A stretch of DNA of 64,000 nucleotides from Haloarchaeobius sp. HME9146 (GCF_025399835.1 NZ_JAODVR010000001.1:2108001-2172000), one strand, 5' to 3'; positions 7,399-19,351 are shown, counted from the stretch's first letter. Made by a program: numbers and translations. Notes: generated by a model not told the origin, from the sequence alone.

Positions 7399-7929
7399 AT
7401 GTCGGACAAACCTGCCTCGATGTACCGGGAGATTTCCAAGCCCGCGTACACCCGACGCGAGTACATCACGGGAATCCCTGGCTCGAAGATCGCACAGCAC
7501 AAGATGGGCGACACCGCCTCTGATCCCGACGACTGGCCGGTCCAGATCAGCCTCGTCCTCGAGGAGGAGTGCCAGATCCGCCACGGCTCGATGGAGGCGT
7601 CCCGTCTGTCCGCGAACCGTCACCTCATCAAGGAGCTCGGTGAGGGCAACTACTACATGATTCTGCGGAAGTTCCCGCACCACGTCCTGCGCGAGAACAA
7701 GCAGGCAACTGGTGCTGGTGCAGACCGTGTTTCTGACGGGATGCGCCAGGCGTTCGGGAAGGTCGTCGGTACGGCCGCCCGCATCCAGCGAGGCGAGCGT
7801 CTCTTCACCTGCTGGTGTACGGTCGAGCAGGCTCCCGTCGTCAAGGACGCGTTCCGCCGTGCCTACAACAAGATCTCGCCGCCGTGCCGTGTCGTCGTCG
7901 AACGCGGCGAAGAGAAGCTCATCGCGTAA
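7399..7929 (+). CDS. rpl10e: Large subunit ribosomal protein uL16 (L10e)
   Basis: 176 aa, full length for archaeal L10e/uL16. Recognisable segments are [36 protein letters not shown], the central [18 protein letters not shown], and a C-terminal [13 protein letters not shown]. The protein sits at the base of the central protuberance of the 50S subunit and helps place the tRNA acceptor end at the peptidyl-transferase centre. The central loop that approaches the active site is intact. It is monocistronic here. Its 3' end overlaps the convergent DUF7344 gene by 11 nt. Confidence 0.97.
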
Positions 7930-8563
7930 GTTCGTCGTTGTCGCTGACGAACGGCCGCCGTTCACGGGCGTCGAGACGCTTTTTGCGCGACGACCACAGG
8001 TGGATGACCGCCGTGCTCGCAAGGACGAGCGTGAACAGCCCAGCGTACGCCAGGCCAGGCAGGCTGGCGAACGGAGCGATACCGGCCCACGCGAGGCCGG
8101 CCAGGAAGCCGAACACTGTAGCGAGTCCGAGGTAGAACTCGCTCCAGTGGAGTTCGTCCTCCGGGACGACCTCCAGGTAGACGTCGAACGCGGAGAGGTC
8201 GGCCGAGGGCTCGACCGTGCCGCGTGATTTGTCGTACGAGACGATCTCGTGTTTCTGCATCATCGGCAGGTGTGTCTGGACCAGCGACGTGTACACCCGT
8301 TTTCGCTGTTTGTAGTCCAGTTCGGACTCGTCGATACCGCATTCCTTGGCAGCGACGTAGCTGGTGAGTTCACGGACCGTGAGTTGCTCGCGTTCGTCGA
8401 GCGCCTGGAGGACCAGCCGGCGACGCTGATTGCTCAGCGTGTGGAACACGGTGTCCTGGGTGAGCTGGACACCGGTGTTCCCGTCATCTCCGGACTGCGC
8501 CACCGCTGTAGATGGACCCCCGTCCCCCGGCTCCGCGACGACCAGTTCCGTCGATGGAGACAT
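7919..8563 (-). CDS. DUF7344-type winged-helix regulator with two membrane helices
   Basis: 214 aa from the ATG at 8563; an in-frame GTG at 8572 is less likely. A disordered N-terminus (1-35) is followed by a winged helix: [29 protein letters not shown], and the family hallmark [15 protein letters not shown]. Two hydrophobic segments near residues 150-190 ([15 protein letters not shown] and [18 protein letters not shown]) suggest a membrane-attached DNA-binding protein. It belongs to the large haloarchaeal DUF7344 group; targets are unknown. It resembles the second copy at 10410. It is divergent from the zinc-ribbon gene at 8810. Confidence 0.75.
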
Positions 8564-8651
8564 GTGTTTCACTAGTAGTTAACAACGCCGTGAGTAGTCT
8601 TAATCTTTCGCTTGAGGGACTCTGGTGCCGAGAATCAGATAGTTCGCTCTC

Positions 8652-8700: not shown

Positions 8701-8763
8701 CACTCCAACGAGGTGGGGCCGTGAGTGCGGGTAATGGTGTCATACCTATACTCTGTTGGAGTG
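8701..8763. repeat. 9-bp inverted repeat flanking the 8810 gene promoter
   Basis: CACTCCAAC (8701-8709) is the exact reverse complement of GTTGGAGTG (8755-8763), with 45 nt between them. The downstream arm is followed by an AT-rich stretch and the ATG at 8810. The arms may be a paired operator. Confidence 0.4.
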
Positions 8764-8809
8764 TAATTATCGTGTGAGTGGTCCGTTTCGTGGCCACCGG
8801 GGAGACAGC

Positions 8810-9652
8810 ATGCAACAATCAGGCGCATCTACAGCTGGGGGGACGATACTGAACAGTCTACGGAAGCCGGAGTACACCGGGGAGAACCGCTGCATTCCGT
8901 GTACCGCGACCAATCTGGCGATAGCGGCGGTACTGACTGCCGGGGCGTTCGTGCTCTGGGCACCGGCCGCCCTCGGCGTCGCGGCCGTCTCACTCGCGAT
9001 GATCTACTTCCGTGGGTACCTGGTACCCGGGACGCCGGAGTTCACCAAACGCTACTTCCCGGACTGGCTGCTCCGGCTGTTCGACAAGGAGGCGAAGCCG
9101 CAGTTCGACGGTGGCGCGTTCGACATCGAATCGTCGCTCATGGAGGCTGGCGTCCTCGTCGAGACGCCCGACGGTGTCGACGTCGAGTTGACGCCCACGT
9201 TCGCCGCCGCGTGGGGCGAACGGATGTCCCTGGTCGCCGCCCGCGACGCCGACATCCACGAGTTAGCGGCCCTGCTCGGCGTCGAGGAGGACCGCCTCGC
9301 CATCACCGAACACGGCAAAGACTCCTTCATCGCCTGGGTCGACGGCAACTGGCTTGCACAGTGGGAGTCCCGTGCCGCGTTCGTCGCCGACATGGCCGCC
9401 GCCAAGGAACTGGAGGCGCGATACGAGAGCTGGCACGACATGCCGATGATGTTCCGCTCGGAACTCCTCGGTGGCCTCCGGCTGTTCGTCGAAGAGTGCC
9501 CGACGTGCGGTGGGCCCGTCGACTTCGGCCAGCAGGTCGTCCAGTCGTGTTGCCGGTCCTACGACGTCATCGCCGCATCCTGCCAGGAGTGCGGGGCCCG
9601 CCTGTTCGAGACCGAGTTCGACGCTGACGCGCTCGAACCGGAGCAGGCGTAG
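8810..9652 (+). CDS. Membrane-anchored zinc-ribbon protein of unknown function
   Basis: 280 aa starting at the ATG at 8810. It begins with a short tail carrying CIPC (C28, C31), then hydrophobic helices at about 35-67. An acidic soluble domain follows, and a C-terminal treble of cysteines: C230-x2-C233, CC at 247-248 and C258-x2-C261, which can bind one zinc. I do not recognise the family. The layout (Cys pair, membrane helices, long cytoplasmic domain, zinc ribbon) suggests a membrane-tethered adaptor or nucleic-acid-binding protein. It is divergent from the DUF7344 regulator at 7919-8563 and shares its promoter region, so it may be that regulator's target. Confidence 0.65.
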   Translation: MQQSGASTAGGTILNSLRKPEYTGENRCIPCTATNLAIAAVLTAGAFVLWAPAALGVAAVSLAMIYFRGYLVPGTPEFTKRYFPDWLLRLFDKEAKPQFDGGAFDIESSLMEAGVLVETPDGVDVELTPTFAAAWGERMSLVAARDADIHELAALLGVEEDRLAITEHGKDSFIAWVDGNWLAQWESRAAFVADMAAAKELEARYESWHDMPMMFRSELLGGLRLFVEECPTCGGPVDFGQQVVQSCCRSYDVIAASCQECGARLFETEFDADALEPEQA

Positions 9653-10409: not shown

Positions 10410-10946
10410 TCAGCCGAAGAACTGTCGCCGGAGCGAACCCCGGAACTTCCACAGCTGGACCGCGGTCGAGGCCGCGAACATCGCGAGGAACCCGCTGGCG
10501 ACCAGGCTCGGGTGGATCTGTTCGACGACGGGAACACCACTCAGCGAGGCGACGACGGCACAGAGGCCGGCGACCCCGAGGCCACGGTAGTACTCCCCCC
10601 AGGTGATGCCGTGGCCGGTCGTCACGTCCATGTACTGGGCGACTTCGCGCGCACCCTCGTCGAGCGTGATGAGCTTGCGGTTGCAGTCGTATTCGAGGAC
10701 GCCGAGCTCGTCGAGTTTCGGCAGGTGCGTCTGATGGAGCGAGATGTAGACCGTCTCGCGGATGTTCCGTGGTGCGGGCGTCTCACCCGATTCGATAGCG
10801 GCGATGAGCTCTGAGAGGTCTCGTAACGTGATAGAGCCCGTCGAGCGGTTCAGAACCCGGAGCGTCTCGCGCCGGCGCGAGTTGCTGAGGATCTGGTGGA
10901 TATCGCACTCCTGTAGTCGATTGCGTCGTGTCGTAACTGGAAACAT
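10410..10946 (-). CDS. DUF7344-type winged-helix regulator with two membrane helices (second copy)
   Basis: 178 aa. A winged helix (ILSNSRRRETLRVLNRS, ITLRDLSELIAAIES) is followed by the DUF7344 hallmark TVYISLHQTHLPKLDELGV. Two hydrophobic segments follow near 120-165 (YRGLGVAGLCAVVASLSG and PSLVASGFLAMFAASTAVQ). The same layout is seen in the gene at 7919. It is divergent from the SipW-type cluster beginning at 11299, and their shared upstream region is AT-rich, so it is a candidate regulator of that cluster. No experimental role is known to me. Confidence 0.75.
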   Translation of the reverse strand: MFPVTTRRNRLQECDIHQILSNSRRRETLRVLNRSTGSITLRDLSELIAAIESGETPAPRNIRETVYISLHQTHLPKLDELGVLEYDCNRKLITLDEGAREVAQYMDVTTGHGITWGEYYRGLGVAGLCAVVASLSGVPVVEQIHPSLVASGFLAMFAASTAVQLWKFRGSLRRQFFG

Positions 10947-11298: not shown

Positions 11299-13638
11299 AT
11301 GACAGAAAAACAATCGATGAAACTGTCCCGGCGCCAAGTTCTCGCCGGGCTCGGAACGATCGGGGTCGCGTCCGCGGGCGCAGGCCTCGGCACCACTGCA
11401 TTCTACAGTGACCGCGAAGCGCTGGAAGGGTGGCTGGAGGCCGGTCGCGTGGACCTGCGTCTCGACTACCGTACAGTGTACAAGCCCTGGGACCGCTTCG
11501 AGCTGACCCGGGCCACCGGCCGCGAGGACAAGGTTCTCGAGAACGGTGCGTTCCTCGTCCCCGAAAGCGACCAGTGTTACGTCGTCGGGCAGGCGCCCGA
11601 CTGGCGTCAGGACACCGAGGGCTACCCTGTCCTCGTCGGTGAGGAGTGGGCCCGCGTCACCCGAGAGTTCGACGCCTGCGCGCTCACGTACGAACAAGCA
11701 CAGGACCTCCGTGGCATGGAGCCCCAGGGACTGAAGATCCCCGAGGAGCTCTCCGGCCCGACCTTCCTGCCGGGCTACGTCGACGGCCCGACCGGCATGT
11801 TCCAGCACATCGACGACATCAAGCCGCTGGACGAGTGGGAGACCACCTTCTCCGTCCACCTCTGTGGCAACCCGTCGAAGATACGGATGCGCACCGAGCT
11901 GACGGCGCCGAAGAACGATAACGGCTCCACGGCGGAGGTAAACGGCCCGTACGGCAACACCGAGAACGGCCGCTTCGAGCCCGAGCGCTCGGCCGGCGAC
12001 ACCACCGACGACGTCGGTGAACTCGGCGACTACATCTACTGTGAGCTGTGGTACGACCCGAACTGCAACAACGTCAAGGACGAGGTACAGCAGGTCTGCA
12101 TCGAACTCGCTATCGACAACTCCGACTCGATGGCGGAGACGTTCGACAACAACATGGAGAACAAGGACGACGGCATCCGCGAGGGCGCTCTCGCTCTCAT
12201 CGAGGAGCTGGCCGAGTTCGACGACTCCGACGACACCGACCTCGCGCCGTTCGAGATGAGTGTGACCCTGTTCGGTTCGGCACCCGACGACATGGGTGTC
12301 GCAACCCCGATCATCGACGTTCGCAGCGTCTCGCGCACGACCGACCGCGCCACGCTCGAGAACGTCTTCGTCGAGGACGGTGACGAATCGTTCGACACCT
12401 CGCTCGGTGACACCGAGGGCACCGTCGCACTCGGCGTCCAGTCCGCAGCAGCGGACCTGGAAGACTGCGAGGGCGCGAAGTTCCTCGTTCTCATCACGAA
12501 CGGTATCGAGAACCTCGACGGCGCAGAAGAAGCAATCGAGGACGCTGTGATGGACGGCATCACGGTCAAGGCCATCCTGCTCGACCCCGAAGTCCTCGCC
12601 GTCGCCGACATCGGTGGCGCAGGCGCAGAAGTGTTCGAATCGGCCAGCACTCAGGATACGCTCGACGCGTTCACCGACCCGATGAGCGACCCGGTCGGCA
12701 TCATCCCGCAGGTCATCACTGCAGTCGATTCCGACGGTGCAAGCGTCGCCGAGACCTGCATCTACAAGGGTCCGCTCAGCGGTCTCGTCGAGGGTGTCGC
12801 CAACGACGGTGGCGTCTACCTCTCGGACGACAACATGCTGTGTGACCCCGGCATCGCGACCTGCTGGGAGGGCGACGCAGTCCACTGTTTCGCACTCCGC
12901 TGTGAGCTGCCGTGCAAGCACGAGGAGTTCGAGGCGCTCGACACCTGCATGACGAACGAGGATGGCTCGACGATGAACATGTACGAGTTCCTCAAGCAGA
13001 AGTACGATATCGTCGACGTCAACGCGACGCAGACCGACGCGTACCACTACAAGATCGAGTTCGAGGCCGAACAGTGCCGCCACCAGATGGTCCCCGAGAC
13101 CGTCGCAGGTGAGGGCTTCGGTAGCCTCCAGTTCAGCAACGCCGGTGAGGTCGGGTACTTCGCCCGCATCCGCAACGGTGACGTGAACACCTGGGAGCAG
13201 GGTTCCGCCGACAACGCGCCGAACGATGGCGCTGACGTCCAGGACGAGCAGCCGTGGAACGATTCCGACGCATCGGGTTCGTTCCGGCTCTACCACGACG
13301 GTGCCGGGAACTTCCAATGGCGTGTCAAGCGTGACGGCGCTATCGAGGAGACCGTCCAGAACGTGGCCGTCGCACCCAACAGCCTGGGTGACCAGCTGAC
13401 CCTCGACGTCCGCAACGGTGCTGGTGGCGACACCACTGTCAGCAACGTGCGCTACAACAACATGGCGCTCGCCGTCGACACCCAGACTTCGGACTCCTCC
13501 GACGTCAACCACATCCTGTTCAACGGTGTGCACCTGTCGAGCGAGTTCGTGATCTCCGGTGACTTCGAGTGGACCGTCACTGGTGCAGGCGCCGACGAGC
13601 TGCCCTCGATCACCTTCGAGGCAGAAGCGGCCCCGTGA
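11299..13638 (+). CDS. Secreted SipW-type protein with inserted von Willebrand A domain
   Basis: 779 aa. The N-terminus combines a twin-arginine motif (LSRRQVLAGLG, 9-19) with a SipW-type cleavage region (GLGTTAFYSDRE, 29-40) and the usual following WLEAGRVDLRLDY. A cysteine-bearing beta-rich core is interrupted at about 265-465 by a vWA domain. Its MIDAS motif is D273-N-S275-D-S277, and the third MIDAS loop reads FLVLITNG with Asn401 where Asp is usual. The core resumes and ends in FEAEQCRHQM near 590, a motif shared with the next two genes. A further C-terminal beta domain of about 180 aa begins at GFGSLQFSNAGEVGYF. It is probably a matrix, pilus or S-layer-associated protein cleaved by the signal peptidase at 17061. 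The start is the ATG at 11299; Met7 is an alternative. Confidence 0.78.
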   Translation: MTEKQSMKLSRRQVLAGLGTIGVASAGAGLGTTAFYSDREALEGWLEAGRVDLRLDYRTVYKPWDRFELTRATGREDKVLENGAFLVPESDQCYVVGQAPDWRQDTEGYPVLVGEEWARVTREFDACALTYEQAQDLRGMEPQGLKIPEELSGPTFLPGYVDGPTGMFQHIDDIKPLDEWETTFSVHLCGNPSKIRMRTELTAPKNDNGSTAEVNGPYGNTENGRFEPERSAGDTTDDVGELGDYIYCELWYDPNCNNVKDEVQQVCIELAIDNSDSMAETFDNNMENKDDGIREGALALIEELAEFDDSDDTDLAPFEMSVTLFGSAPDDMGVATPIIDVRSVSRTTDRATLENVFVEDGDESFDTSLGDTEGTVALGVQSAAADLEDCEGAKFLVLITNGIENLDGAEEAIEDAVMDGITVKAILLDPEVLAVADIGGAGAEVFESASTQDTLDAFTDPMSDPVGIIPQVITAVDSDGASVAETCIYKGPLSGLVEGVANDGGVYLSDDNMLCDPGIATCWEGDAVHCFALRCELPCKHEEFEALDTCMTNEDGSTMNMYEFLKQKYDIVDVNATQTDAYHYKIEFEAEQCRHQMVPETVAGEGFGSLQFSNAGEVGYFARIRNGDVNTWEQGSADNAPNDGADVQDEQPWNDSDASGSFRLYHDGAGNFQWRVKRDGAIEETVQNVAVAPNSLGDQLTLDVRNGAGGDTTVSNVRYNNMALAVDTQTSDSSDVNHILFNGVHLSSEFVISGDFEWTVTGAGADELPSITFEAEAAP

Positions 13639-13798
13639 TAGCATAGCCTCCAGACTACCATCGACCCATCGTGGTCTGACGGTATCGCCGGACACGGTGT
13701 CCTGGTGACCCGTCCGCGGACCTCGTTTTGCGGTTCGTGACGGCGGTTCGACTCCGCCAATGGGTCCTGCCTCGGGGAGAGGCAACTCCATACATATC

Positions 13799-15106
13799 AT
13801 GCAATCAAGACGCTCACAACTCACACGCCGAAAGGTCCTGGCGGGGCTCGGGACTATCGGCGTGGCGGGTGCAGGAGCAGGGCTCGGCACGACTGCGTTC
13901 TATAGCGACAGAGAGGTCCTCGAGGGCTGGCTGGAGGCCGGCCGTGTCGACAACATCCTCGACTTCCGGTCGACCTACGAGCCCTGGGACCGCTACGAAC
14001 TCCACGACGTAGCGCCCGAAGACAGACCGCCGCTCGTCCCGACGGACGACGAGCGCGAGGTGTACCTGCTCGCGGAAGGCCCCGCCTTCCTCGACGCGGA
14101 AGGGAACCCGCTCTCGGACGAGTTCTTCGCGAGCGACGTCCGGACGCTGGACGCGTGCTCGCTCGCCGATTCGACCGACCTCAGCATCGGGCTCGCGTCG
14201 GAGGACTTCGAGATTCTCAACGCCTTCGGCGTCGACACCGTCCCGGACGACCTGTTCTTACCGGGCTTCGTCGACGGCGAGACGGGTATCTTCCTCGAAC
14301 TCGACGACGTGAAGCCGAAGGACCTGGGGGCACTCCAGTTCGACATCCACGTGTGTGGGAACCCGTCGCTGGCGTTCCTCTCGGTGGCCATCGACGAGTT
14401 CACCAACGAGGCCATCGCCGACAGTCAGGAGAACCAGATCATCGAAGCCGAACAGGAAGCCGGCGAGGTGTTCGGGGCGAACTTCGTGAACGCGGGCTTC
14501 GAGATAGACGGCGTCACCGAGAAGCCGGGCGAGCTCCGGGACTTCCTGTACCTGGTCCTGTTGAAGAACGCGACTGGCGTGCTCAAGCCCTTCGACGAGG
14601 TGAAAGCGAAGGTGTTCGACGCCGTCAACGGCCTCAACAACGAGGAAGACGTCCTGTTCGCGGGTTCCGCATCCGGGCTGGTCGAGACGCTCATCAACGC
14701 AGCCGATGGCCGCATCCAGCTCGAACCGTCGGGCCTCAGCGCCGACGTGGACGCCAAGGGGCTCTGCTTCGACGTGGACGTCCACGGCTACCAGCTCAGC
14801 TGGTTCCTCGCCTGTGGCGAGACCGACCCGGCAGCCGAGGGCTTCAGAGATCTGCTCCTGTTCAACTCGTTCACCGAGAACGTGTTCCAGGCCGACGTGC
14901 TGGGTGACGGGAACCTGGTCGACGTCCAGGACAACGACATGGACGGCCAGATGACGCTGAACGACGAGCTTCGCGAGCGCGGGTACTACCTCGGCATCAG
15001 TGCCCAGACGGCCGACGAGGTCACGGTCGACGTGAACGTGACCCAGACCGACGACCTGCGGCTGGGCTTCAACTTCGACCTCGAGCAGTGCCGCGCCAAC
15101 AGCTGA
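13799..15106 (+). CDS. Secreted SipW-type protein (paralogue of the 11299 product)
   Basis: 435 aa from the ATG at 13799. Its first 55 residues are nearly the same as those of the preceding protein: LTRRKVLAGLGTIGV, GLGTTAFYSDREVLEG, WLEAGRVD. The shared C-terminal signature VNVTQTDDLRLG and LEQCRANS closes the SipW-type core. In place of the vWA domain it has a different acidic insert (about 205-330). It is a likely partner or alternative subunit of the same surface structure. It lies 160 nt after the first gene, enough for its own promoter. Only sequence-level paralogy is seen; function is inferred from the cluster. Confidence 0.75.
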   Translation: MQSRRSQLTRRKVLAGLGTIGVAGAGAGLGTTAFYSDREVLEGWLEAGRVDNILDFRSTYEPWDRYELHDVAPEDRPPLVPTDDEREVYLLAEGPAFLDAEGNPLSDEFFASDVRTLDACSLADSTDLSIGLASEDFEILNAFGVDTVPDDLFLPGFVDGETGIFLELDDVKPKDLGALQFDIHVCGNPSLAFLSVAIDEFTNEAIADSQENQIIEAEQEAGEVFGANFVNAGFEIDGVTEKPGELRDFLYLVLLKNATGVLKPFDEVKAKVFDAVNGLNNEEDVLFAGSASGLVETLINAADGRIQLEPSGLSADVDAKGLCFDVDVHGYQLSWFLACGETDPAAEGFRDLLLFNSFTENVFQADVLGDGNLVDVQDNDMDGQMTLNDELRERGYYLGISAQTADEVTVDVNVTQTDDLRLGFNFDLEQCRANS

Positions 15107-15706
15107 ACAGGCACACTGCCATCACGCTTTCTCGCCGGTACGGGGTTGTCAGTCTCTCTTGTGGCTGGTCTCTCGATCTCGCGCCTTCTCGGGAGCGACG
15201 AAACAGCAGCCGATAGCAATCAACCCTCTGACAATAGCTGCGCTCGGTGAGTGCCGAATCCGATATCGTCGGGAGCACGCTCGTGATCGGGGGCGCTGGT
15301 CGGTGACGAACTGTTCAGCGAGAAACCGGGTTACTGCGGCGTATCTAACCGGGGGTTCGGGGGTGAACCGTCCAGACCTATCGAACGTTCACCTGATGGG
15401 CTGGATGGGTTACCGCGCAGTAGCTTCAGCATACCTAATGTATCAACGAACATATGAACGAGTGTCAGGGGGAGTCGTGTGTCTTTCCGGCGAGACGCCG
15501 GACACCGACCGATGGCACATCGCCACACCACTGGGGAAAACAGACATGACTCGAATAGGGGACGTACGCACTCGCACGACAACCGCAGACGTCTGTGTGT
15601 CCGTCGGTCCGTCCAACGGGACGACCGGGCGCACACGCGACGACGCGACTAGCGAACTGCGTTCGACACAGAACGGTGGACGGGACGAGAATCGAGAGGT
15701 GACCGC
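15107..15706. other. 600-nt gap between SipW-type genes, no supported gene
   Basis: A 183-codon open frame crosses this gap but has no haloarchaeal composition (many Arg, Cys, Trp; not acidic) and resembles nothing. AT-rich runs around 15425-15460 may be the promoter of the next gene. The gap separates two cluster genes that otherwise look like parts of one system. Confidence 0.45.
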
Positions 15707-16936
15707 GTGAAAGACAAACGGTCGGTCAGTCGCCGCCAGCTGCTGTACACGCTGGGTGGCGTCAGTGCCATCACTGCCGCGGTCGGGGCGACCGGGACGA
15801 CTGCGCGTCTCCTCGATGCAGAGCGACTGGGCGGCGCGTTCACCACGGGTGGGCTCGACCTCGACATCTGCTGGCAGGACGGCCAGCTCCACGCCGAGAA
15901 CACCGAGGCCGAAAGCGAAACCGAAGAGGACGCGAAGACGACCGAAGTCATCGAACCGGGGTTCTGTCCGGAGTTCGTGAACGGGTCGATCATCGAGGTC
16001 CAGCTGCCGAAGATCGACGCGGAGAACCGCACCGGTTCGGGCAGTGCTCGCGTACGCTTGCCCGACGACGGGCACAACAACGTGGCGTGGCTGTGGTTCC
16101 GCACCAGCTGTCCGGAGAGCCCGTGCACGCAGGTGGGGGACTACTCACTGGCCAACCTGTATCGGGCACTCGACCTTCGGGTGTTCTACGACGTCGACTG
16201 CGACGGTGAACCCGAGGAAGGCGAAACCGTCACCATCGCGGAGGGAACCCTCTGTGAGGTCCTCTCCGAACTCCACAGCGGGGTTCGCCTCGACAGTGAC
16301 CTGAGCTCGGCCGACGAGATCGATTCGTTCACGCCCGGCCAGGAGGTCTGCATCGGCTTCGAATGGGAGCTGACGGCGGACATCTGCATCGAGGGCGGCT
16401 CCGAGGCCAGCTTCAGCCTGGAGTTCTACGCCGAACAGGCGCGCCACAACATGGCGATGGAATCGCCGTGGGACGACGAGTGCACCGTCCGCTGCGACGA
16501 GGTGTGCCAGGACTGCGTCCAGGGGAAGGGTATCAGCTTCGTCGCCTTCTGCGTGGAAGACGGCGAGCCCCTCCAGGACGGCGACGTCTGCTTCGGCGTC
16601 ACCGGGACGAACAGCGAGGGTGAGCCGACCAGACTCGCCTGGTATCTCACCCAGGCGGCGCAGGACCGCGGGGTCGACGGTGTCGACTACACCGTCCTGA
16701 AGACCGGGAACGGGCCGATGCCCACCGACTTCGCCATCGAGAACTTCTACTCGAACAGCGGCGTCGAGGGCTACGTCACCATCCACGAGGGGACGCCCGG
16801 AACCGGCGACCAGCTCCCGCAGAGCCCCTGCAAGGACGGACACACCGGCATCAAGTACGACTACGAACCGGGGTTCGACAGTCCGAACGACCCCTGCGTG
16901 CCGGACGACTGGGAGTTCTCGGAGACCCGGGACTGA
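15707..16936 (+). CDS. Secreted SipW-type protein, third copy
   Basis: 409 aa with a GTG start at 15707. The signal has a twin-arginine motif (VSRRQLLYTLG, 7-17), then TGTTARLLDAERLGGAF and the SipW-type TTGGLDLDICW. The core holds the YDVDCDGEP and VCIGFEWELTADIC strands and ends in LEFYAEQARHNM, matching the FEAEQCRH motif of the first copy. A C-terminal domain of about 160 aa starts at GKGISFVAFCVEDGEPL and contains a cluster of cysteines (CTVRCDEVCQDC) just before it. It lies 124 nt upstream of the signal peptidase gene and is its most direct candidate substrate. Role in a fibre or matrix is inference. Confidence 0.75.
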   Translation: MKDKRSVSRRQLLYTLGGVSAITAAVGATGTTARLLDAERLGGAFTTGGLDLDICWQDGQLHAENTEAESETEEDAKTTEVIEPGFCPEFVNGSIIEVQLPKIDAENRTGSGSARVRLPDDGHNNVAWLWFRTSCPESPCTQVGDYSLANLYRALDLRVFYDVDCDGEPEEGETVTIAEGTLCEVLSELHSGVRLDSDLSSADEIDSFTPGQEVCIGFEWELTADICIEGGSEASFSLEFYAEQARHNMAMESPWDDECTVRCDEVCQDCVQGKGISFVAFCVEDGEPLQDGDVCFGVTGTNSEGEPTRLAWYLTQAAQDRGVDGVDYTVLKTGNGPMPTDFAIENFYSNSGVEGYVTIHEGTPGTGDQLPQSPCKDGHTGIKYDYEPGFDSPNDPCVPDDWEFSETRD

Positions 16937-17060
16937 ACAGCAGACAGACGGCCAACCCGCGTGGTACGAGGCCACCAGGGCGGTTCGAGACCGCCCGCGG
17001 GCGTCCCTTCGGGGAGAGTATTCCGGGGCGTCACCCGACGCTTCAGGGAAGGGAGTTCAC

Positions 17061-18092
17061 ATGACACGAAAGGATTCAAACGACCGGCGATGGCTGATTG
17101 GGGGGTCGCTACGGACGGCGATAAACGTCGTCGCACTGCTGCTACTCCTGGTAGTAGTCATCCCCTTCATCATCTATGCGGTTCCGCAGGTCGCCGGCGG
17201 CGACCAGAGTTACGTGGTACTGACGGGGAGCATGGAGCCAGCGATCAGCCCCGGTGACGTCGTCATCGTCACGCACGTCGACCCGACCACCATCGAGGTC
17301 GGCGACGTCATCATCTACGAGCGGGCGAACATGAACGTCCCGACGACCCACCGGGTCGTCGAACGGACCACGACAGAGACTGGAGACATCGCGTTCGTCA
17401 CCAAGGGTGACGCCAACGAGGACACCGACAGCGGGCTCGTGACGACGGGTGCCGTCATCGGTGAGATCTCGCTGACGCTCCCCAAGGTCGGCTACGTCAT
17501 CCAGTTCGTCAACTCCGAGACGGGGTTCCTGGCGCTCGTGCTGGTTCCGTTCGGCCTGCTCATCCTGACCGAGATCTGGTCGCTCATCGGCACCGGACTC
17601 CTCGGCCGGAAGGAACAGGACGGTGACGCAGAAGCGAACGAACCGGTAGTGACCGCTGCCGAGGAGAACACGTCCGGTGGTGGCTCAGCCGGCGACGTCG
17701 CGACCGCCACTGCAGGTGGTGCGACCGCAGCAGCAGCCATCGAGGACGAGGAAGAGGCCCTCACGTTCACCCGGGACGAACTGCGCATCGGGCTCGGCGT
17801 CACGGGCTTACTCGTGCTCTACTCGGGCGTCATGCTCTGGCTGGTCTACAGCCGGATGCTGGGCTTCCAGCAGTTCCTCACGGTCAGCATGATGGGCTTC
17901 GTCGCCTCCATCGGCCTGCTCGTGCTGCTCGGGAGCTTCTGGCGACAGTGGCCCGAGGCGACGGAGGAAGCACGCTCGGTCACCGACGGCGGTGTGACGA
18001 TGGCGGACGAGGACGAGCGACGGGCTGTCATGACCGCACCGGTCAAGTCGCCCGAGGACTCCTCCTCCGTCGGCGGAGACAGCGATGACTGA
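17061..18092 (+). CDS. Signal peptidase I, archaeal ER-type (SipW-like)
   Basis: 343 aa. Helix 1 at 20-42 precedes the catalytic domain. The nucleophile is Ser57 in LTGSMEPAI, and the general base position is His97 in PTTHRVVERTT rather than Lys, as in ER/SipW-type (S26B) peptidases. KGDAN at 115-119 is the conserved third box. After the catalytic domain there is one helix (155-175), an Ala/Glu/Gly-rich linker and two further helices (about 247-300), longer than minimal Sec11-type enzymes. It removes signal peptides on the outer membrane face. Its position among four SipW-type substrates strongly suggests a dedicated processing peptidase. The next gene starts inside its last codons (overlap 8 nt). 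Confidence 0.88.
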   Translation: MTRKDSNDRRWLIGGSLRTAINVVALLLLLVVVIPFIIYAVPQVAGGDQSYVVLTGSMEPAISPGDVVIVTHVDPTTIEVGDVIIYERANMNVPTTHRVVERTTTETGDIAFVTKGDANEDTDSGLVTTGAVIGEISLTLPKVGYVIQFVNSETGFLALVLVPFGLLILTEIWSLIGTGLLGRKEQDGDAEANEPVVTAAEENTSGGGSAGDVATATAGGATAAAAIEDEEEALTFTRDELRIGLGVTGLLVLYSGVMLWLVYSRMLGFQQFLTVSMMGFVASIGLLVLLGSFWRQWPEATEEARSVTDGGVTMADEDERRAVMTAPVKSPEDSSSVGGDSDD

Positions 18093-19119
18093 TCTGAAGC
18101 GGACGTTGGTCGTCCTGGTCGCCCTCGGTCTGCTCGGTGCGACCATCGGTGGGAGCGGCGGCGCTGCCGCGTTCTACAGCGATACCGAAGGGGCGAACCT
18201 GTCGATATTCGGTTCACAGACCGTCTCGGACGTCGAGGCGACCACGGTCGAGGTAACCGGCTTCCAGGCCGAGACCCTGCGCGGCCACGTGTACGCCGCC
18301 GACTACGAGAGCGACGTCATCTACGTCGAGATCGTCCGCGCCGCCGACGGGACCGTGACGATGACGTTCACCCGCGAGAAGTCCGACCCGGCTCGCATAT
18401 ACATCGAGGCCTCGCGTCTCGCCGAGGTCCTCGGCGTCTCGGTCTCCACGCTCACCGATGCCGACGTGACCCTCGACGGGGCACGTATCGAGAGCACCGT
18501 CTACGAGGCGAAGACCACCGGGCAGGCCAAGAAGTCGGGCGACAGCGGCGAGTACCTCACGTTCGTCATCGATTCGTTCTCGACCAGAACGGTCGAGATA
18601 ACCGCCACGGAGCCCGAACCGGAGACCGGCGACAATGTGACCGCTGGTGACAACACCACTGTCGGTGACAACGTGACCGCCGGCGACAACGGCACTGTCG
18701 AGGATAACTCGACCGTCGGCGACAACAGCACCGTCGGCGACAACACCACTGTCGGCGACAACAGCACCGTCGATGACAACACCACTGTCGAGGATAACTC
18801 GACCGTCGGCGACAACACCACTGTCGGTGACAACAGCTCCACCGAGGACAACAGCACCGTGGTCGACGACGGCACCGGCGACAACTCGACCGCGGACAAC
18901 ACGACGGTCGAGGTCTCCAGCAGCGACGACAACACCACCACCAACGAAACGACCGGTACGAGTGCCGGAGACGGGTCGGTGGACGACACGGAGTCGTCCG
19001 ACAGCACTGGAACCGACACGACAGCGTCGGTGAACACAGATAGCGCGATAGCCGAGGTGTCGTCAGGAACGAAGAGCGTCCTGAGTGAGGAGCCGACGAG
19101 CGATGGAGCGCCCGCCTGA
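18085..19119 (+). CDS. Secreted SipW-type protein with an N-glycosylation-sequon repeat stalk
   Basis: 344 aa. The signal MTDLKRTLVVLVALGLLGA lacks twin arginines, so it is Sec-type, but GGAAAFYSDTEGANLSIF is a SipW-type cleavage region. A beta-rich domain (about 45-175) follows. Residues 184-256 are 13 hexapeptides of the type (G/D/E)DN(S/T)TV, each with an N-x-S/T sequon exactly six residues apart; four more sequons follow to residue 287. The C-terminus is Ser/Thr/Asp-rich with no PGF-CTERM or other anchor. The sequon array suggests a stiff, heavily N-glycosylated stalk. Translation is coupled to the signal peptidase gene by an 8-nt overlap. Confidence 0.78.
   Translation: MTDLKRTLVVLVALGLLGATIGGSGGAAAFYSDTEGANLSIFGSQTVSDVEATTVEVTGFQAETLRGHVYAADYESDVIYVEIVRAADGTVTMTFTREKSDPARIYIEASRLAEVLGVSVSTLTDADVTLDGARIESTVYEAKTTGQAKKSGDSGEYLTFVIDSFSTRTVEITATEPEPETGDNVTAGDNTTVGDNVTAGDNGTVEDNSTVGDNSTVGDNTTVGDNSTVDDNTTVEDNSTVGDNTTVGDNSSTEDNSTVVDDGTGDNSTADNTTVEVSSSDDNTTTNETTGTSAGDGSVDDTESSDSTGTDTTASVNTDSAIAEVSSGTKSVLSEEPTSDGAPA
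18631..18864 (+). repeat. 18-bp coding repeat encoding N-glycosylation sequons
   Basis: About 13 units of 18 nt inside the preceding gene, such as GGCGACAACACCACTGTC. They vary at synonymous and S/T positions but never lose the Asn or the hydroxyl residue of the sequon. Confidence 0.8.
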
Positions 19120-19351
19120 ACGTCGCGATCCCGGTGACCCTCGTCGCCGTCGGTCGTGGACGCCAGCAATACTCTCCCTGCTGCTGGCGGTGCCGGGTTC
19201 GATGTCGAGAGGCGGGACCGGAGCCTCGCGGCGGCGTCTCCGGAGACTCCTCGGGCTCAGAGCGAACGCCCCGAAGCGAAACGCGCTGCTCTTGCTGGTC
19301 TACCTGGTGGTCGGCCTGTACCTCGTCGGCCTGCTCGTCAGTCTCCTGTAA
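19103..19351 (+). CDS. Small basic membrane protein at the end of the SipW-type cluster
   Basis: 82 aa from the ATG at 19103, overlapping the stalk-protein gene by 17 nt; an in-frame start at 19085 is possible. The first 55 residues are unusually Arg/Pro-rich for a haloarchaeon (ERPPERRDPGDPRRRRSW). The C-terminus is one strong helix (NALLLLVYLVVGLYLVGLLV). Overlap and order suggest co-transcription with the signal peptidase. Its 3' end overlaps the convergent kinase gene by 14 nt. Function unknown; it could be spurious, but the C-terminal helix is convincing. Confidence 0.5.
   Translation: MERPPERRDPGDPRRRRSWTPAILSLLLAVPGSMSRGGTGASRRRLRRLLGLRANAPKRNALLLLVYLVVGLYLVGLLVSLL

Follow-up and report, generated by a model that had tools for sequence, protein, structure and literature searches.

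The stretch of DNA analysed here, referred to as the window, comprises 64,000 nt of Haloarchaeobius sp. HME9146 (NZ_JAODVR010000001.1:2108001-2172000). ORF calls in this window placed six co-directed genes, A to F, between positions 11299 and 19351. The earlier note had delimited a SipW-type secretion and fibre or matrix locus to this interval; its six genes are real, but the conserved unit extends upstream to position 7919, taking in a zinc-ribbon gene and two genes for DUF7344 proteins. The outermost of these, Ra (7919-8572, minus strand), encodes a DUF7344 protein, a putative winged-helix regulator (Pfam PF24035, E = 2e-26). The second DUF7344 gene, Rb (10410-10946, minus strand; PF24035, E = 2.5e-27), is divergent to the operon and likely encodes its regulator, and a gene for a zinc-ribbon membrane protein, ZR298 (8756-9652, plus strand), is located between both.

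Genes A, B and C, all on the plus strand, encode TasA-like proteins with predicted Tat export. Protein A (11299-13638; 779 aa; family alignment A1, own-genome profile match E = 5e-109) displays a twin-arginine motif, SRRQVL (11326-11343), followed by the SipW-type cleavage region AFYSDRE at residues 34-40 (11398-11418), where its sequence suggests that cleavage probably occurs after Ala34; it further carries a degenerate vWA insert and an additional C-terminal part. The longest ORF of B covers 13760-15106, but the better start is at 13799, yielding a protein of 435 aa (13799-15106) with the twin-arginine motif TRRKVL (13823-13840) and AFYSDRE at residues 33-39. Protein C (15707-16936; 409 aa), encoded next to and upstream of the peptidase gene, has the twin-arginine motif SRRQLL (15728-15745) and an extra C-terminal tail, with TTARLLDAE replacing AFYSD and TGGLDL replacing AGxxDL. 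It had been claimed that all the secreted proteins share an AFYSDRE or AFYSDTE region followed by AG-DL. The region is indeed present in A, B and E, but C lacks AFYSD and the word "all" is thus too strong; moreover, the AG-DL stretch takes another form in C and is missing from E. The earlier note also overlooked the Tat motifs of A, B and C, which stand in place of plain Sec signals.

Gene D (17061-18092, plus strand) encodes an ER-type signal peptidase I (343 aa) that bears a membrane extension at its C-terminus, and the catalytic pair reported previously, Ser57 (GSMEP) and His97 (THRVV), is exact. The protein scores 99 bits with the NCBIfam archaeal signal peptidase I model TIGR02228 (cut-off 51.85; E = 2e-28) and 89.5 bits with the Bacillus SipW model NF046067, below the cut-off of 190, and should thus be regarded as SipW-like and not as SipW. 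Only two clear TIGR02228 genes were found in the genome, both in loci of the kind described here. The C-terminal membrane extension makes the peptidases of these loci long, with a median ORF of 370 aa. In a tree with long, unsure branches they cluster, without forming a strict clade, apart from the peptidases of Tat-fimbriae (Taf) loci. D is probably a dedicated peptidase, which would cut the subunits encoded next to it.

In the window, gene E (18085-19119, plus strand; 344 aa) shares its first 8 bases with the end of D. A gene coupled to the peptidase gene in this way follows it in nearly all loci, its start lying within or beside the end of that gene, in most cases with a short overlap, and E is translationally coupled to D. 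Protein E carries no RR in its signal; AFYSDTE (residues 29-35) is followed by 18 N-glycosylation sequons. The glycan stalk formerly listed as an extra module turned out to be one lineage's version of this conserved gene, the tail of which is variable. Residues 184-272 (18634-18900) form a hexapeptide repeat with a sequon every ~6 residues that matches left-handed beta-helix models; this Hexapep match was set aside as that of a low-complexity repeat absent from the ortholog in locus L032. Gene F (19085-19351, plus strand; start uncertain, perhaps 19199) encodes a small protein whose C-terminal membrane helix (APKRNALLLLVYL...) is conserved; the motif of this helix was detected downstream of 13 of 70 peptidases and of 0/70 on the reverse strand.

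The vWA-like insert of A maps to 12097-12582 (plus strand) and is degenerate: of the MIDAS motifs, DNSDS (pattern DxSxS) is present (DNSDSM at 12115-12132), whereas TNG is found in place of the usual TDG. With an independent vWA profile it scores 17.9 bits, as compared to 8.5 for the best shuffled sequence and 36 bits for the ortholog in L032. Pfam detects no vWA domain in the window's A itself, while relatives match Pfam VWA with E-values down to 1e-23. In vWA-bearing members, two separate matches of the family profile flank the insert, which places the vWA domain inside the TasA-like domain. Rather than an extra foreign to known systems, as it had been presented, such an insert occurs in 43 of 59 untruncated loci. 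One vWA member (L048 10136-12331) also displays a C-terminal "choice-of-anchor W" domain, above the cut-off.

A, B and C belong to the TasA/camelysin family, whose members share the motifs DvKPGD, NP, GNExQ and EQxRHN; most are 400-800 aa long and one-domain members of ~240 aa also occur. For B and C this kinship was established by a two-step chain of profile comparisons, leading from profiles A4/A3 to A5 (Sec-type archaeal camelysins) and from there to TasA. The B family matched the Sec-type archaeal camelysins over the whole domain (99.7%, E = 1.2e-25) and the C family did so at 99.2%; the Sec-type archaeal camelysins in turn matched B. subtilis TasA over the full length (95.7%, E = 1e-8), and Pfam identifies one of their sequences as a camelysin over its full length (E = 3e-15). 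When profiles were compared directly with TasA, only the C-terminal motif was aligned. Direct sequence searches with B and C among solved structures found no relative, and plasmids searched with a TasA query gave no match. The cut-off of Pfam Peptidase_M73 and of the NCBIfam TasA model was not reached by the window's proteins (A, 11.7 bits vs 22.5; B and C, no match), and several relatives exceed it, but via the first strand only; the missed cut-off reflects the reach of these models and not kinship. TIGR04088, an NCBI model that already marks SipW-type signals in relatives, matched 21 of the 23 A1 members at E-values up to 1, the window's proteins not being among the matches listed.

Comparison of the predicted folds of B and C with TasA and AbpA, a check suggested in the earlier note, pointed in the same direction. 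The mature proteins were modelled from family alignments, with a core pLDDT mostly >90 for C and low confidence for B (pLDDT 55). Foldseek ranked TasA (8aur_A) first for the C model (E = 1.6e-3, prob 0.95). By VIA-align, three TasA entries reached Z scores of 7.2, 7.1 and 7.0 with C, as compared to 5.8 for AbpA (7ueg), and TasA entries reached 7.5, 7.3 and 7.3 with B, the next chain scoring 5.0; a Z of ~7 is middling, 7-8 being common as the best score of unmatched models. Such values are not decisive alone, and the fold assignment thus leans on the profile chain and on the top rank of TasA with both models. AbpA (7ueg) was absent among the matches listed for the weak B model. For profile A3 the best sequence match in the PDB was AbpX, albeit a weak one (E = 0.018). 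The match of A1 to the PDB "Pilin" 9p0a (E = 0.01) was rejected as a sign of a shared fold, as it spans the Tat signal alone, and sialoadhesin matches were rejected as covering a short motif.

Gene order was then compared among haloarchaea, as had also been suggested, and found to recur in many genera. The recurrent order, observed in dozens of loci, reads DUF7344 gene, zinc-ribbon gene, DUF7344 gene, several secreted proteins, often including one with a vWA insert, peptidase and E; a recurrence of this extent cannot be ascribed to chance. The named scan returned 68 loci from many genera. With the addition of whole-genome loci, 89 had at least one member and 59 of these were untruncated; the counts given here refer to those 59, which are kin and not independent samples, a few being one locus counted twice. 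A peptidase gene lies within 2.5 kb of the members in 51/59, and in 45 of these 51 the strand is shared. Rb was found in 53 of these loci, Ra in 45 and the zinc-ribbon gene, with its position kept, in 32. Members were present in at least 21 of 197 genomes in the phylum search, a lower bound of their prevalence. In several genomes of one genus sucCD adjoins the locus, yet protein divergence is large (window compared with genome G069, 41% for A and 63% for B). The genome of strain HME9146 contains a further locus of this kind, L031 7599-16278 (C1:2934599-2943278), which has a peptidase of its own and includes a vWA member. The orphan members of L056 and L057 and some further loci have no peptidase nearby; three of these orphans belong to the same genome (L056 10052-14608; L057 7810-9912), one of them bearing a Laminin_B domain (L056 10052-12427). 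An alternative arrangement was observed in L040, L045, L079, L080, L087 and L114, where the genes of one or two members converge on those of a short peptidase (183-283 aa) and of a DUF7344 protein.

A first count of twin-arginine motifs gave 247/248 with a profile that itself contained the RR; this being circular, the count was redone with the mature domain alone. RR was then found upstream in 484/484 usable haloarchaeal matches, a total in which a protein caught by both profiles may count twice, and in 0/6 Sec-type sequences from non-haloarchaeal genomes. The E proteins of other loci mostly have a plain hydrophobic signal without RR, followed by a SipW-like region. E would thus take another export route than the subunits, and we infer that one peptidase plausibly serves substrates of two routes. 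TasA-like subunits with Tat signals and a signal peptidase of their own appear to be a new combination, which we could not find described; the literature searched, a partial survey that is no proof of novelty, contained no description of haloarchaeal SipW/TasA loci. We know of no TasA relative for which Tat export of a folded donor-strand subunit has been established.

Taken together, we consider it probable that these loci encode a haloarchaeal system for surface filaments or a matrix that belongs to the TasA/camelysin family, is provided with its own peptidase and has moved from Sec to Tat export, the formation of fibres or matrix by A, B and C being suggested by kinship and gene order. The same TasA fold could also be carried by surface proteins that do not polymerise but remain tethered to the cell as single adhesins or as an outer layer, displaying vWA and other variable domains. 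The length of most members, their vWA, Laminin_B and "choice-of-anchor W" modules, and the adhesin-like divergence of the proteins occupying the same genomic place in one genus would all suit such a role. However, short members with one domain exist, and adjacent members sharing one dedicated peptidase follow the plan of a fibre operon, so that we hold this alternative to be unlikely, although a serious one.

It seems considerably less probable still that D is a general Sec11-type enzyme that merely neighbours these genes while a house-keeping peptidase cuts the substrates: D does fit the general archaeal signal peptidase I profile and orphan substrates are encoded far from any peptidase, but the two clear TIGR02228 genes of the genome are both within such loci, the peptidase adjoins its presumed substrates in most of them and gene E overlaps D. 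Least of all do we expect the locus to encode Tat-fimbriae of the Haloarcula kind. In Taf loci, too, Tat-signal subunits occur together with an ER-type signal peptidase and a DUF7344-like gene, but the family models contradict this very improbable assignment: the match of A and B to TafA is confined to the signal peptide, with 14-16 bits against a cut-off of 190 (15.6 bits for B with NF052520), no protein of the genome exceeds the cut-off of that model, and the Taf peptidases are on a 100/100 branch distant from those of the loci described here.

TasA-type fibres form a biofilm scaffold in Bacillus and pili in hot-spring archaea, and it is assumed that their subunits pass through the membrane in an unfolded state. 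For the TasA-like system favoured here, the following mechanism can be proposed. The subunits, acidic and adapted to high salt, would fold in the cytoplasm and exit via Tat; the uncut signal peptide would tether each subunit and restrain its N-terminal donor strand (from FYSDRE to AGxxDL). Cleavage by D ahead of two aromatic residues would release this strand, and the freed subunits would polymerise outside by donor-strand exchange, as TasA does. SipW cleaves TasA, the fibres of which assemble by donor-strand exchange (PMC9674648, PMC10151520); aromatic P2' residues hinder E. coli LepB yet are cut by SipW (PMC10269814). Members bearing a vWA domain would probably be adhesive or tip subunits. 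E, a presumed Sec substrate that D probably cuts as well, might be a minor component for anchoring or initiation, corresponding in position to TapA of Bacillus, and the DUF7344 proteins would control the operon. We put forward only tentatively, at somewhat less than even chances, the full proposal of a folded, Tat-exported TasA-family filament for which the peptidase, by freeing the donor strand, is the switch, acting on Tat substrates and on a Sec substrate (E), with a lineage-wide change of route early in haloarchaea. If folded export is true, the donor strand must be restrained by the uncut signal, and the signal peptidase would then be the switch for assembly; as the locus is widespread, this idea is testable in several culturable haloarchaea. 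A likely role would also be provided for hundreds of proteins annotated only as "SipW-dependent-type signal peptide-containing protein", as well as for the DUF7344 genes, which are found beside two kinds of Tat-exported surface loci.

Among known systems, tapA-sipW-tasA of B. subtilis likewise comprises TasA-family subunits, a dedicated ER-type (Ser/His) signal peptidase and an extra protein encoded beside the peptidase; its cleavage region before an aromatic pair and its AGtLDL strand have probable counterparts in A and B. The haloarchaeal loci differ from it in carrying Tat instead of Sec signals, in usually having several paralogous subunits, and in possessing a vWA domain inside the subunit domain, DUF7344 regulators and a long disordered, often sequon-rich E. 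The archaeal bundling pili (AbpA of Pyrobaculum; AbpX) are also built from archaeal TasA-like subunits, but in another phylum, and to our knowledge no Tat signal, vWA or DUF7344 genes are known for them. The Sec-type camelysin loci L160-L163 of non-haloarchaeal Halobacteriota encode several paralogous camelysin-type subunits each, with a peptidase gene by the subunit genes in three of the four (L161-L163); unlike the loci described here, they have no twin-arginine motif, no vWA and a shorter peptidase. Tat-fimbriae of haloarchaea consist of Tat-exported fimbrial subunits, according to the mention of Galeva et al. 2025 in PMC12687288. In their loci (L070 8506-12835, L072, L073) a DUF7344-like gene is accompanied by an ER-type signal peptidase that belongs to another branch; they resemble the loci described here in this gene content and in their Tat subunits, whereas the subunit family differs beyond the signal and a SipW-type cleavage region is absent from Tat-fimbriae.
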